DNA of 64,000 bases from contig NZ_CP109442.1 of the NCBI RefSeq assembly GCF_036227205.1, positions 6,572,001-6,636,000 of the forward strand, read 5' to 3'. The stretch comes from Amycolatopsis sp. NBC_01480 (GTDB taxonomy: Bacteria; Actinomycetota; Actinomycetes; Mycobacteriales; Pseudonocardiaceae). Positions within the stretch are counted from its first letter, which is position 1. Every line of letters begins with the position of its first letter. The notes below the pieces were generated by a model. That model was not told where the DNA came from, ran no database searches, and saw only the letters and a program-made list of their open reading frames with translations. Of the stretch, positions 41,585 through 50,095 are shown in pieces. Both the position numbers and the translations under genes were made by a program.

Positions 41585-41728
41585 CGTCCGCCGGACTCGT
41601 TGTGCACCACCATCCGACGCCGAACTCCTGCACCGTCCACTCCGGACGCTTGTGCGTCGGGTGGCACTGGCAGTCCTAGGAAAACCGGTCGACTGGCTGT
41701 GGCCAGGCCGTTCTTCCAGGCTGGAGCC

Positions 41729-42646
41729 ATGACCGAATCTGGAACCGTCCTCATCACCGGCCCGACCCGCAATCTGGGCCGCCACGCCGTGCTGGCCATG
41801 GCCGGCCGTCCGGAGGGGCAGCGGCCGGACCTGCTGCTCGTCGGCCGGGCCGGGCGAGATCTGACCGCGGTCGCGGGCGAGGCCCATGCGCTCGGCGCCC
41901 GCGTCCGCGAGATCGGCTGCGACCTGTCCAGCCTGGCCGACGTCCGGGCGGCCGCGGCCACCGTGCGCGGTCTGCTCGCCGACGGCGCCGTCCGTCCGCT
42001 GCGCGCGCTGGTCGCGAACGCCGGCACCATGTCGGCCGATACCCAGCACGCCTCGGCCGACGGCTACGAGCTGACCTTCGCCGTCAACTACCTCGCCCAC
42101 GCCGAGCTGATCGCCGGTCTGCTCGGCTCGTTCACCGCCCCGGCGCGGGTCGTGCTGATCGGCTCGAACACCTACCACGCCAACTTCTGGCGCAAGCTGC
42201 TGCACGTGCCCGCGGCCGAGTGGGCCGACCCCGTCGAGCTGGCCCGCCCGGGGAGTGGCGGCCCCGGCGTCGCCTATTCCAACGCGAAGCTGGCGATCCT
42301 CTACTACGCCCACGAGTTGCAGCGCCGAGCCGGCGCGGGCGTCAACGTCTCGGTGTTCGAACCGGGCTGGATGCCCGGCACCGCGCTGGGCCGCGGCGCC
42401 CCCGCGGCGTTCCAGGCGGTGGGCCGCGCGCTGGGCCGCCTTCCCGGCGTCTCGACGCCCCAGCGTTCAGGGCCGCTGTTGGCCGCGATGGCTCTCGACG
42501 ACCAGTGGGCAGATCTGCGTGACGGTGCGTTCGTGCTCAAGACCAAGCTGACGGAGGTGCAGCCGATCGCCCACGACCGTGACCGCGAGCGCCGCCTGTG
42601 GGAGGCGACCGCTGAGCTGTTGGAACGTGCGGGCGCGTCACGTTAG
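41729..42646 (+). CDS. SDR-family protein (protochlorophyllide reductase-like)
   Basis: 305 residues: TGPTRNLGRHAV in place of the usual TGxxxGIG, CDLSSLADV, ANAG, then GSNTY and AYSNAKLAILYYAHEL with the YxxxK pair, and a long C-terminal region (FEPGWMPGTALGRGAPAAF). This is the retinol dehydrogenase / protochlorophyllide reductase-like subgroup. CTGGAG precedes the ATG. It is likely independent of the preceding SDR (145-base gap). Confidence 0.85.
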   Translation: MTESGTVLITGPTRNLGRHAVLAMAGRPEGQRPDLLLVGRAGRDLTAVAGEAHALGARVREIGCDLSSLADVRAAAATVRGLLADGAVRPLRALVANAGTMSADTQHASADGYELTFAVNYLAHAELIAGLLGSFTAPARVVLIGSNTYHANFWRKLLHVPAAEWADPVELARPGSGGPGVAYSNAKLAILYYAHELQRRAGAGVNVSVFEPGWMPGTALGRGAPAAFQAVGRALGRLPGVSTPQRSGPLLAAMALDDQWADLRDGAFVLKTKLTEVQPIAHDRDRERRLWEATAELLERAGASR

Positions 42647-46321: not shown

Positions 46322-47893
46322 TCAGAACGGCCAGTCCGCGGTCCGCCCGGCTTCCAGGAGCGGGATCATCCGAAACGTCGCGTCGGTCAGCCCGCCGAAC
46401 TCGTGCCGGTGCGCGGAGCCGGTCGCCATCGCCGCGGCCTGGTAGCCCTGCAGGTTGAACCCGTAGATCGGGACGTGCTTCGGCACCAGGTCACCCACCT
46501 GCGGCCCGCGCGGGCCGCCGACGGTCTGCATGTCCGAGATGATGAACACGCGGTCGTGCCCGGCGTAGCTGCGCCGCAGCGCACCCCCGATGTCGGTGCC
46601 GTGCCCGACCTCGCCGATCCGCTCCAGGAACCGCTCGACCTCGCGGATCACCGCGGCGCCCTTCCGGACGCGGTGCCGGAACGTGCCGTTCGCGAACCCG
46701 ACGACGTCGACCCGCTCGCCCTTCGCCCCGAGCGCGACGCCGAACACCGCGGCGGCCTTGGCCGGGGTGACCTTCGAGCGCGCCGAGTGCCCGAGACCGG
46801 TCATCGACGCCGAGGTGTCGATGAGGATCAGGGACCGGCCCGGCAGCGACGGCAGGTTCCGCAGCGAATGCCCGAGCGCGGTGTCGAGCGCGTGGCCCCA
46901 CCGCAACGAGGGCGCGGTCTCGTACGCGGACAGGAACCGGAACGGGAACTGCCGCGAGCTCGCGACCTGGTCCGGGTCCGCCAGCCGCCCGGCGACCCGC
47001 GCGGCCACCTCGTCCGAGACGCCGGCCTCGTCGAAGTTGCGGAGGTTCCGCAGCAGCGCCATGTATCCCATGGACGGGATCAAGGCCTCCCACAGCCGTT
47101 GCTTGTCTATTGTGGACCCGGCGAGGGACAGCGTGGCTTCCCACGTCATTCCCGCTTCGCGCAAGGCCTCGCTGTCGAGCAGGACCTCCGGCTCCGCGGC
47201 GACCGCAGCCCGCACGGCCGCGTTCGCCCGCAGAGTCCGGAGCGTGTCCGGGATCTGCTCGGCGTTGCCGTGACGGACGTCGAGCGCGTACCGGAACAGG
47301 TCGCCCTGCCGGCCGTCGGCGTCCGGGTGGGTGAGGTTGAGGACGTCACCGAACCGGTAGCCGCGCGCGTCGGAGTCGTACTTGAGGAACGACCGCTCGT
47401 GGTAGAGGCGCTTCGCCGCGTCGGCGACCCCGCGCTTGACCGGCTTCGGCACGTTCCGGCCGTGCACCGACGTCCAATACGCCAGCATCTCGCCCGGCTC
47501 GTCGGCGCGCTGGAGCGCGCTCGCGACGACCTGACGGGACTGGCCGTCGAGCCCGGCTTCGAGCCGCGCCTTGGTGAACTCGGCGGCGCCGACGAGCGAA
47601 GCGGAACGCATGTTGGCGTCGGTGCGGAGCCAGCGCAGGAACCGCGCCGTCCACTCGGGATCGGCGAGGGTGGCGGCGTGGACGAGTTCGGCGTACCGCT
47701 GGTCTCGCTTGCCCGCGGACTCGTAGAAGGTGTTCTCGCCGACCAGGTTCGACACAGCCAGCAGGAACAGCGCGGACTTGGCGTCGCGCTGATAACCCGG
47801 GCCGTCCTCATGGGTGCGGCCGGTCGCGGTGCGCTCGGTGGTGATCGGTGAGAAGAGCGCCGCCTTGATGGCGGTCACGTTGAACTTGCCCAT
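46322..47893 (-). CDS. rsr: TROVE-domain protein, Ro60/Rsr orthologue
   Basis: RNA-binding ring protein related to Ro60; bacterial Rsr works with Y RNAs and 3' exonucleases in RNA processing and decay. 523 residues: a TROVE HEAT-repeat ring (about 20-350) with GYQRDAKSALFLLAVSNLVG at the start, MLAYWTSVHGRNVPKPVKRG, and MGYMALLRNLRNF, followed by a vWA domain with the MIDAS motif DTSASM from residue 359, later VGFAN and ISDMQT. The MIDAS is complete. A tRNA-like RNA candidate lies 70 bases upstream on the same strand. The ATG follows GGGGGCGAGACCAG; the ribosome site is modest. Confidence 0.93.
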   Translation of the reverse strand: MGKFNVTAIKAALFSPITTERTATGRTHEDGPGYQRDAKSALFLLAVSNLVGENTFYESAGKRDQRYAELVHAATLADPEWTARFLRWLRTDANMRSASLVGAAEFTKARLEAGLDGQSRQVVASALQRADEPGEMLAYWTSVHGRNVPKPVKRGVADAAKRLYHERSFLKYDSDARGYRFGDVLNLTHPDADGRQGDLFRYALDVRHGNAEQIPDTLRTLRANAAVRAAVAAEPEVLLDSEALREAGMTWEATLSLAGSTIDKQRLWEALIPSMGYMALLRNLRNFDEAGVSDEVAARVAGRLADPDQVASSRQFPFRFLSAYETAPSLRWGHALDTALGHSLRNLPSLPGRSLILIDTSASMTGLGHSARSKVTPAKAAAVFGVALGAKGERVDVVGFANGTFRHRVRKGAAVIREVERFLERIGEVGHGTDIGGALRRSYAGHDRVFIISDMQTVGGPRGPQVGDLVPKHVPIYGFNLQGYQAAAMATGSAHRHEFGGLTDATFRMIPLLEAGRTADWPF

Positions 47894-47964
47894 CTGGTCT
47901 CGCCCCCTCGGTCGGACGTCGCTTGTGGACGGTCCGGGACACAGCCGGCCCCCGAGATCAAGAC

Positions 47965-48031
47965 GGCCACAGGGTTAGCGGACTTGAACCGCGGGCCGCC
48001 GAAACGACCTCAACCAGAAGTACCTGTGGCC
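47965..48031 (-). ncRNA. Candidate YrlA-type Y RNA (tRNA-like)
   Basis: Read on the minus strand, GGCCACAGG (48031-48023) pairs perfectly with CCTGTGGCC (47973-47965) to close a domain. Inside it are a T-arm GCGG-TTCAAGT-CCGC with a canonical seven-base T loop, a D-arm-like ACTT-CTGGTTG-AGGT whose loop has GG, and a middle stem made from bases around GGTCG-TTTCGG-CGGCC. There is no CCA or full acceptor/anticodon, so it is not a tRNA. The position directly upstream of rsr is where bacterial Y RNA genes occur. The transcript probably extends beyond these bounds. Prediction by eye only. Confidence 0.55.
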
Positions 48032-48059
48032 TGCGCACCGGGAGGTGTTCGAGGCTGTC

Positions 48060-48088
48060 GCTTCCGGTGACCGTGCCGCATCGGAAGC
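48060..48088 (-). terminator. Hairpin between the unknown gene and the RNA candidate
   Basis: GCTTCCG (48060-48066) pairs with CGGAAGC (48082-48088), just after the stop at 48093-48095. No T-run. It could end the upstream transcript or process it from the RNA. Confidence 0.4.
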
Positions 48089-48092
48089 TCAA

Positions 48093-48929
48093 TCAAGCTA
48101 ACAGGCCGGCATTCGTTGCCGCGATGGGTTTTTCCGGCAGGGGACCGGTTCGGGGCTGGTTCCAGAGCTGCAGCAGGCAGCCGGAATCGCGGGTGTGGAA
48201 CCGCATCCGGTAATCGCCGGGCCCGGCGGGCAGCGGCGGCAGGTCCAGTTCCCGTCCGGCCAGTTCGCGGAGCACGACGTAACCGGTGTGAAAGCGGCAG
48301 CTCAGCTCGACGACGCGGCGATAAGACCGGTCGGCGCCGGGGTCCGTGGGGGCGATGGCCACGGTCAAGGCGAGCGTGCCGTCGTGGATCGGCGCCCAGA
48401 ACAATGCCGCGCCGGGGACGGCGTCGATCAGGTCGGCGGACTCGGCGTGCGGAGGGACCGGCAGGATCGCGCCGAGCGGGCAGCCGCGGTCGAGCAGCGT
48501 GAACTGGCCGGCCCGGACGCGCAGGAGGAACTCGAGGCGTTCGGTGGTCGCGGTCGCGCGCCGGTCGGGGGCGAAGTCCGCGGGGACGCCGTCGGGGAAG
48601 CCGTGTTCGGCCAGCGCTGCGGTGTACTCGGCGTCGGTCAGCTGCCGGGCGCGCTCGGCGAGGCCCGGCACCTGTCCCGGCTCCGGCGGCTCGGTGGTGG
48701 ACAGGACGGCGAACGAAACCGGGCCGTCGCCCGTGGGTTGCTGCCAGCGGCTCACCTTGAGCGTTCCGCACTTCCGGCAGGCGACCCGGCAGATGTTGAC
48801 GGTCTGGCTGGACGCGTCGAGCTGCGTCTCGGTCACCTCCAGGATGTCGCCGGGGAAGTCGTGGGGCTGGCCGCAGGCGCGCAGGATCAGCTCCATGGCG
48901 ACGTCTTCGCGGCTCGGGACGGTCCTCAT
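48093..48929 (-). CDS. Protein of unknown function with CxxC motif
   Basis: 278 residues, no family recognised. Visible are an N-terminal MELILRACGQPHDFPGDILE, then VACRKCGTLKVSRW, a possible single-stranded zinc knuckle using CGQPH plus CxxC. A middle part has AEYTAALAEHGFPDG, and a C-terminal half is rich in strands (GAALFWAPIHDGTLALTVAI, YRMRFHTRDSGCLLQLWNQ). The ATG overlaps the stop of the SMI1/KNR4-like gene (ATGA), so the two are co-translated. Upstream of the RNA candidate and rsr on the same strand. Confidence 0.65.
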   Translation of the reverse strand: MRTVPSREDVAMELILRACGQPHDFPGDILEVTETQLDASSQTVNICRVACRKCGTLKVSRWQQPTGDGPVSFAVLSTTEPPEPGQVPGLAERARQLTDAEYTAALAEHGFPDGVPADFAPDRRATATTERLEFLLRVRAGQFTLLDRGCPLGAILPVPPHAESADLIDAVPGAALFWAPIHDGTLALTVAIAPTDPGADRSYRRVVELSCRFHTGYVVLRELAGRELDLPPLPAGPGDYRMRFHTRDSGCLLQLWNQPRTGPLPEKPIAATNAGLLA

Positions 48930-50095
48930 CGGTCACCTCGGGGCTGGGTCAGGAGTTCACGGCCGCGCTCCGGGGTCAGGACGGCGGCCAGGACCGGGTC
49001 GGCGAGCAGCGCGACCGGGGCGAGGTGGTCGACGGTTCGCGGCCGCCACTGCGCCAGCGCCGCCCGCACGGCTTGCCACAGGGCTTCCGGGTCGGCGTGC
49101 TCACTGAGAGCTTGCTTGATCAGCCGATCGAACTCCGGGTTCCCGAAGTCCGGGCGGCCGCCAGCTCGCCGCCGGGCCTGGCCTTCGCCGACGGCGAGCT
49201 GGATCTCCGGCCGCTCACCGATCATCGCCGACTGCAGCACCGAGTTGTGCGTCGGCGTCGCGTCGCGGGCATGTTGGTCCAGCAGCCACGGCAGTAATTC
49301 CTCGGTGAACAGCGGATCGGTCAGAAAGCCGTCGGGCAGGAACGACGGGCTCAGCAACCGGCCCAGCGACTGCGCGGCCTGGTAGCGCCGGCCGAGCAGC
49401 AGATCGAGCTGGACGCGCAGGACCGTGGCCCGGATCCGGCCGAATTCCTCGGCTTGCTCCAGCGCCGCGGCGGCGCCGTCGATCTCACCGGCGAGGGCGT
49501 CGAGCCGGGCCTGCTCGACCTTGGCGTCCCAGGAATCGCGGGTTTCGCCGGCCGGTTTGCGCATCTGGTGGAACTCGGCGTACAGGTCCTCCATCAACGC
49601 GGTGAACGACGCGAACCGCGTGGGCGGCTCGGCTCTCCAGGAGAACAGGCTGTACGCCGCCCACTCACCAGCGTCGTCGACATCGCCCGGGTCGAGGAAC
49701 AGCACCCCGGCGTCGGCCTCCAGCGAGATCAGCAGGCCCCGGCTGAACCTGTTGCCCTGGACCGGATCCGTGTTTTCGTCGCCGCAGAGTTCTTCCCAGT
49801 CCTCCCAGTACGGCTCGATGTCGCGCAGCCAGCCGAGAGTGGTGGTGTCGCGCAGGCGCCAGACGAAACACCCGGCGTCGCGCCAGCCGTCCGTCGTCAG
49901 CAGGAATTCCCGGTACGACGGCGGCAATGTGTGGCCAAGCCGCGCCTCCGCCTCGGCCACGGCTTCGGCGCTCGCCGGCGCGAAGCCGAGCCAGCGGTCG
50001 CGCAGCACCTGCGGATCCAGCTCGGCGGGTTCGGCACTGCCGACCCGCTCCTGGCTCCATCGAGTCAACCACGGTCCCCAGTCCATGACCGTCAT
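48926..50095 (-). CDS. SMI1/KNR4 (SUKH)-domain protein
   Basis: 389 residues. The N-terminal SUKH fold reads VAEAEARLGHTLPPSYREFL, LTTDGWRDAG and ENTDPVQGNRFSRGLLIS (about 40-190). The remainder is a helical region (LDALAGEIDGAAAALEQAEE) of unknown role. SUKH proteins often serve as immunity proteins to polymorphic toxins, but they also occur elsewhere, and no toxin gene is adjacent. The start may be 50095 or the in-frame ATG at 50086. It lies 50 bases after the LuxR gene on the same strand. Confidence 0.8.
   Translation of the reverse strand: MTVMDWGPWLTRWSQERVGSAEPAELDPQVLRDRWLGFAPASAEAVAEAEARLGHTLPPSYREFLLTTDGWRDAGCFVWRLRDTTTLGWLRDIEPYWEDWEELCGDENTDPVQGNRFSRGLLISLEADAGVLFLDPGDVDDAGEWAAYSLFSWRAEPPTRFASFTALMEDLYAEFHQMRKPAGETRDSWDAKVEQARLDALAGEIDGAAAALEQAEEFGRIRATVLRVQLDLLLGRRYQAAQSLGRLLSPSFLPDGFLTDPLFTEELLPWLLDQHARDATPTHNSVLQSAMIGERPEIQLAVGEGQARRRAGGRPDFGNPEFDRLIKQALSEHADPEALWQAVRAALAQWRPRTVDHLAPVALLADPVLAAVLTPERGRELLTQPRGDR

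Follow-up and report, generated by a model that had tools for sequence, protein, structure and literature searches.

What is the structured RNA encoded just ahead of the Ro60 gene in this window (the whole 64,000-nucleotide stretch analyzed here), and to which class of RNA does it belong? An earlier note, made from the sequence alone, had read a 67-base segment of the minus strand (47965..48031) as a tRNA-like RNA, a probable YrlA Y RNA, directly upstream of a TROVE (Ro60) gene. That gene is confirmed: rsr, the Ro60 orthologue (46322..47893, minus strand, 523 aa), matches Pfam TROVE (PF05731, E 8.1e-20) and the PDB TROVE proteins 9l5y and 9kop (both E 1.8e-23), together with VWA_2 at E 1.1e-4, which is below that family's Pfam cut-off. 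The position agrees as well, as the element ends 71 bases ahead of the rsr ATG and is encoded beside the Ro60 gene. Elsewhere in the window, an ORF with a SUKH (SMI1/KNR4) domain lies two genes upstream of rsr (48926-50065, minus strand), and ARAGORN called a tRNA-Arg at 41723-41804 (minus strand), where the Rfam tRNA model was silent at threshold; the call is probably spurious.

We found that the element extends beyond the 67-mer. An outer, Ro-type stem, identified in the fold and covarying in alignments A2 and A3 (5′ strand CUCCCGG, 48038..48044; 3′ strand CUCGGGGG, 47949..47956), enlarges it to a 96-nt unit on the minus strand (47949..48044). This stem has 7 bp and one bulged U (47955), and is followed by an internal loop and a 9-bp inner closing stem, in which GGCCACAGG (48023..48031) pairs perfectly with CCUGUGGCC (47965..47973), as seen in the sequence, the fold and a seven-unit alignment (A3). 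Inside the inner stem, the order is a UACUUC box that the alignments show to be common to Y units of different classes (48017..48022), a D-loop-like UGGUU (48012..48016), a middle hairpin GGUCGU-UUCG-GCGGCC with 6 bp and a UUCG loop (47994..48009; fold and helix 3 of A3), a T-arm GCGG-UUCAAGU-CCGC (47992-47978; sequence and helix 4 of A3) whose loop fits TTCRANY, and then 4 bases. The closing stem, the canonical T-arm and the middle hairpin are thus all as the note had described them. Its D-arm-like hairpin holds in part: the GG-bearing loop is present, but its stem is weak, only 2 bp (UC/GA) in the predicted fold. This loop, 5′ of the T-arm, is the unit's only D-arm candidate, and its support comes from conserved letters and from enrichment of the GG motif, not from covariation.

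Folding energies give a weak signal. The 67-mer folds at -30.3 kcal/mol, compared to a shuffle mean of -22.4 kcal/mol, and 4 of 200 shuffles are equally stable. A 102-base version of the unit has a z-score of -1.33 (20/200 shuffles as good), and in the 199-base intergenic region the element's structure is not the minimum-energy one (z 0.12, 103/200 shuffles as good). Consequently, the case for the element is based on comparison rather than on folding energy.

We compared the locus with other rsr loci. A first draw contained rsr in 34 of 120 genomes and a class-wide draw in 54 of 393 genomes (E <= 1e-40), both counts including the window's own genome; a further collection kept 80 loci out of 96 confirmed, and additional stretches were added. 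Most of the upstream regions read hold units that have a box CCGGUGCG, the UACUUC box and a 3′ strand GAUCUCGG in common. When 20 units of the permuted, YrlA-like order were aligned (A2), 15 of the 23 predicted pairs had at least one double-sided change that kept the pair. The UACUUC box is invariant in alignments A1 and A3; in A2, this holds for five of its six bases, with the A present at >=90%. The two helices of the lower stem (helices 1 and 2) covary both in A2 and in the seven-unit alignment, the window's outer stem matches the Ro-binding stem of relatives, and the bulged U is flanked by two invariant pairs in all 20 A2 units too.

A covariance model built from these 20 units (R1), with the window's sequence outside the training set, was used to search the 10.1-Mb window genome. 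The element ranked first of 24 matches (36.6 bits, E 1.9e-4; runner-up 26.1 bits, E 0.05; these E-values are rough), and the match spans 47948-48045, the expected borders of the unit. Together with the covariation, it indicates a lower stem formed from the 5′ and 3′ ends that carries a Ro box. Because a model trained without it places the element first in its genome, it is very probably, by these sequence comparisons, a Y RNA. The note's broader reading, a Y RNA at an rsr locus, is therefore well supported by relatives. No second Y RNA was found in the window genome by searches with R1 or with R2, a second covariance model described below.

Promoter-like signals lie further upstream on the same strand. 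A GGAAA element of the array promoter (48131..48135), recognized by its spacing and its enrichment at other loci, is followed by a -10-like hexamer TAGCTT (48095..48100) that overlaps the final codons of the upstream ORF. Among 154 first units of other loci, GGAAAA occurs upstream of 31 (shuffle mean 0.9), and the distance from GGAAA to TANNNT is 33-35 bases in 29 of 33 cases; it is 35 in the window. The same 154 upstream regions contain 123 TANNNT matches, of which 74 precede the Ro box by 15-18 bases and 46 by exactly 16. In the window, 16 bases separate TAGCTT from CCGATGCG, the degenerate Ro box of a 29-nt mini hairpin (GCUUCCG...CGGAAGC, 48060..48088) that is visible in the sequence and in the 199-base fold, while the distance to the full unit's box is 59 bases, outside the usual spacing. 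Thus, the apparent promoter spacing fits that of other loci, but only up to this hairpin, which is probably what remains of an earlier, first Y unit. It resembles stem-only mini units of about 28 nt (CTCCCGGTGCG...GATCTCGGGAG) that lie between full Y units upstream of rsr in L004 and L009 and offer a Ro-type site without an effector domain.

Such an arrangement raises the possibility that the element is a cis-acting 5′ leader of rsr, bound by Rsr for autocontrol, with no separate small RNA. The 71-base distance to the start codon, the shared strand, the promoter-like signals and the absence of any hairpin-plus-U-run terminator seen by eye between element and gene would all suit a leader. We nevertheless consider this improbable, as five class genomes (E <= 1e-5) carry units with the same Ro-type stem at sites away from rsr, and bacterial Y RNAs are described as Rsr-bound small RNAs (PMC4726728). 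The two roles are, on their logic, not exclusive.

Y units also occur in other settings. In five genomes of family f31 they lie far from rsr: L202 (4096-4193, minus strand), L203 (3960-4061, minus), L204 (3981-4240, plus), L205 (3930-4029, minus) and L207 (3662-3825, minus). In L202-L205 an ORF that encodes a PriA_3primeBD domain follows the unit closely or is overlapped by it at its start; metK flanks the other side of the unit in L202 and L204 and lies beside it in L207, and the L204 region has a YrlA-type match of 76.8 bits. Two tandem units at the start of a major-facilitator transporter ORF, again away from rsr, were seen in L206 (3893-4159, minus strand). Five actinophages (GiJojo, Quantum, VanLee, Atuin and BRock; L208-L212) carry a Ro-like gene with YrlA-type matches nearby, with best R1 scores of 48.9-85.5 bits; in GiJojo, Atuin and BRock the Ro-like gene is inside a tRNA gene cluster.

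The more specific label, YrlA, did not survive the comparison. In a search of 241 bases, the Rfam YrlA model (RF02553, threshold 69 bits) did not report the window's unit at any E-value up to 10, whereas the permuted unit of L065, our yardstick, scored 57.6 bits (E 1.3e-12), itself under that threshold. The covariance-model check proposed in the note thus came out below the family threshold, which counts against YrlA and not against the wider Y RNA class. At the gathering threshold, Rfam reported nothing in the window and, across the loci of 16 relatives, one riboswitch and no Y RNA; two further matches at E 10 in the 2651 bases around rsr were set aside as chance. RF02553 is an incomplete yardstick for these loci, since in E-value mode it gave 7 matches in 6 of 10 loci (L002 among the 10), none at the position of the window's class of unit, and misses the L003 unit, which R1 scores at 92.8 bits.

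Searches with our own tools agree. A loose regular expression for the permuted order matched 100 of 110 rsr regions, and the window is among the 10 without a match. YrlA-type matches (R1 >=60 bits) were counted by script in 148 of 169 loci at 61.7-136.2 bits, a count in which the 20 R1 training units lie inside these loci, L032 is not scanned and some units in the counted loci have odd or reduced D-arms (for example, L127 and L003). The 21 negative loci include L180, for which the stretch came from the wrong gene side, and some may hold a YrlA elsewhere, as the upstream stretches covered were mostly 1.2 to 3 kb long. All 28 same-genus relatives with rsr in the first draw have a YrlA-type match, and the R1 search of the window genome found none at >=60 bits. 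Given its different helix order and the silence of RF02553 at E 10, the element is not, as judged from these data, a YrlA.

The order found in the window (box, GG loop, middle hairpin, T-arm, 2-5 bases, closing stem), which we call unpermuted, recurs in six more units. Four were spotted by eye (L020, L031, L088 and L098) and two by a descriptor requiring the inner helices (L131 and L179), giving a class of seven of which five, the window's included, were picked by eye. The descriptor search covered 170 rsr upstream regions, in which L032 repeats the L003 contig, and gave 11 matches, compared to 0 on the reverse strands and 0.2 per set in single-base shuffles. The matches in L124, L162, L168 and L178 were dropped, in our judgement, for a misplaced box or stem or as ordinary permuted units. 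The Ro box of the Nocardia unit (L088) bears a likeness to human Y RNA, which is not used as evidence.

In the seven-unit alignment, 86.1% of cells are paired, compared to 38-50% when the partner strand is slid. The note had asked for covarying pairs in relatives upstream of rsr, and double-sided changes are present in 17 of 25 pairs, each of the four helices having compensatory changes; the count of pair types is equalled by 24 of 500 shuffles. Requiring the inner helices favours them by selection (middle hairpin, 82.5% of cells paired and double-sided changes in 4 of 6 pairs; T-arm, 100% and 3 of 4 pairs), while the descriptor made no use of the outer stem, in which 92.9% of cells are paired. 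Among the individual members, the minimum-energy fold of L131 is a different one, and the z-score of L098 is -0.37.

A covariance model of this class (R2), with the window in its training set, scores the element at 91.8 bits and nothing else in the window genome above 20.5 bits. R2 has matches (E <= 1e-5) in 42 of the 393 class genomes, and all 42 are among the 54 rsr-positive genomes, an overlap compared by hand on what we presume to be the same genome draw, with R2 run under stricter filters. Of the five best matches, those of G106, the window genome and G131 have the unpermuted order, and those of G454 and G128 are T-arm-only units; the lower matches were judged by length or left unjudged, and those read are hairpin or permuted units. 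By these matches, the unpermuted class is rare. All six relatives with an unpermuted unit also have a YrlA-type match (71.8-105.8 bits in five, 48.5 in L088), so the case for a replacement of YrlA is based on one genome. We dropped the idea of genomes with the unpermuted class alone as a common state: G131, at first taken to be without a YrlA, has a 78.9-bit YrlA-type match 1.9 kb upstream of rsr. Among the genomes with T-arm-only matches, G454 has a 113.1-bit YrlA-type match on another contig and G128 has none above 45.1 bits. We found no description of an unpermuted T-arm Y RNA in the literature, of which our sources cover a part, and an earlier mention is possible.

If the window genome once had a YrlA, the element could instead be its decaying, functionless locus, with the T-arm as the remainder. 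R1 found no YrlA in this genome, the upstream mini hairpin appears degenerate, and the YrlA of the nearest relative (L003) has a shortened D-arm. This reading is also an unlikely one, about on a par with the leader: all four helices of the window's unit are intact, other families preserve the layout through compensatory changes, and the promoter-like signals are intact.

The history of the locus may be more complex than descent within the genus. The closest rsr is that of L003, a same-genus genome whose contig is shared by L032, an Amycolatopsis MAG, at about 72-73% identity (tblastn: 72%), followed by an Actinosynnema (71%) and four Lentzea (65-67%), while nine other same-genus copies that were compared have 51-60% (tblastn). 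Since an Actinosynnema and Lentzea are closer than most same-genus copies, the locus may have moved between lineages, a lead from one measure (tblastn).

A true YrlA that has merely diverged would explain the T-arm, the Ro-type stem and the rsr neighborhood, and R1 does align the element over its full length at 36.6 bits. We regard it as highly unlikely, because the acceptor hairpin is absent, no D-arm follows the T-arm on its 3′ side, RF02553 stays silent at E 10 while YrlA-type matches in 148 loci score 61.7-136.2 bits, and the alternative helix order is found again in six other units. A chance fold or stray tRNA fragment, which the unremarkable energy of the full unit would allow, has a negligible probability, as it is contradicted by the R1 genome rank and the seven-unit covariation together, by a model match at the expected borders, by the confinement to rsr genomes, and, for a fragment, by the lack of any tRNA call here from ARAGORN or Rfam.

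Other Y units suggest what the T-arm requires. The motif [UC]GG[UC] directly follows UACUUC in 26 of 49 T-arm units without a following D-arm, compared to 17 of 183 permuted and 9 of 112 hairpin-only units, in a refined count with rough automatic classes, L032 omitted and kinship ignored. A first count gave 31/60, 16/177 and 10/109, respectively. When the rows were read, many of the exceptions proved to be misfiled (Lentzea-type hairpins taken as D-arms, D-arms of Leu type overlooked). We also set aside a third D-arm detector as overly permissive, since it filed 224 of 232 units, the window's included, as having a D-arm; the resulting table, on which we do not rely, points in the same direction (GG in 7/8 without and 36/224 with a D-arm). 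In the permuted unit of L003, the D-arm is cut short and the linker contains CUGGU. From these patterns we infer that the T-loop needs a GG partner loop wherever that loop sits. In L104, L158, L171 and L173, the Y units seem, within the 520 bases read, to be hairpins without a T-arm; the rsr copies of L158, L171 and L173 are extra copies in their genomes.

We judge it likely that the element is an unpermuted Y RNA gene whose product tethers Rsr through a tRNA-elbow-like head and has replaced a lost YrlA; it would be a structural variant of the Y RNA and is probably the Rsr tether. The promoter that rsr arrays conserve would drive its transcription, either together with rsr or just ahead of it. 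The outer and inner stems, as their conservation suggests, would form the lower stem that binds Rsr. The junction of GG loop, middle hairpin and T-arm, in natural tRNA order, would be the effector end, where T-loop and GG loop probably form the elbow-like head. This head would do the job of YrlA's permuted domain, tethering Rsr to a partner or gating its access to one. The partner is most likely PNPase, whose gene is present in the window genome. As the only Y RNA detected in the genome, the element has probably replaced a lost YrlA.

According to published work, Rsr binds the Y RNA lower stem, and in D. radiodurans the Y RNA acts as a tether between Rsr and PNPase and as a gate for RNA entry (PMC4726728), while the tRNA-like domain of YrlA binds PNPase (PMC8394870). 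By analogy, the window's T-arm head would tether its Rsr likewise, and we read the tRNA-like head as the end of YrlA that meets the effector. A natural Y RNA that has a T-arm and GG loop but neither the acceptor arm nor the D-arm of the permuted form, from a genome in which no YrlA was found, suggests which parts are essential, and a 96-nt RNA together with Rsr and PNPase would allow a direct test of the elbow hypothesis. A further consequence is that the Rfam YrlA model, used by itself, misses the sole Y RNA detected in a genome. More tentatively, and with the odds somewhat against it, Ro60 partner RNAs might carry a single tRNA-like head in two circularly permuted forms, both giving the T-loop a GG partner loop, with the Ro stem replacing the anticodon stem in YrlA and the acceptor stem in this class; this genome would then have swapped one for the other and run its Ro60 on the unpermuted form alone.

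Several known systems are close to the element. The T-arm-only Y units (for example, L004, L008, L142 and L172) share with the element a GG right after UACUUC, then a T-arm with no D-arm after it, and differ by lacking the middle hairpin. Hairpin-only units of the same actinobacterial arrays have the Ro box, the UACUUC box and the inner and outer stems of the element, but lack its T-arm; our guess is that they resemble Salmonella YrlB. Compared to tRNA, the element has the T-arm and the sequence of D-like loop, middle arm and T-arm, but it lacks an anticodon, a real D-stem and a 7-bp acceptor stem stacking on the T-arm, and the 4-base linker between T-arm and closing stem means that tRNA-like stacking is not reproduced. 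With YrlA (RF02553; Salmonella YrlA, PDB 6CU1) it shares the Ro-type lower stem, the T-arm and the rsr neighbor. The bacterial Y RNA 6CU1 superposes on tRNA via circular permutation (PMC11472068). In YrlA, the order is T-arm, closed acceptor hairpin and D-arm, whereas the element has GG loop, middle hairpin and T-arm, without an acceptor hairpin, a canonical D-arm or any D-arm 3′ of the T-arm. Because the element's head is in natural tRNA order, its Ro stem would stand for the acceptor stem, where that of YrlA stands for the anticodon stem.
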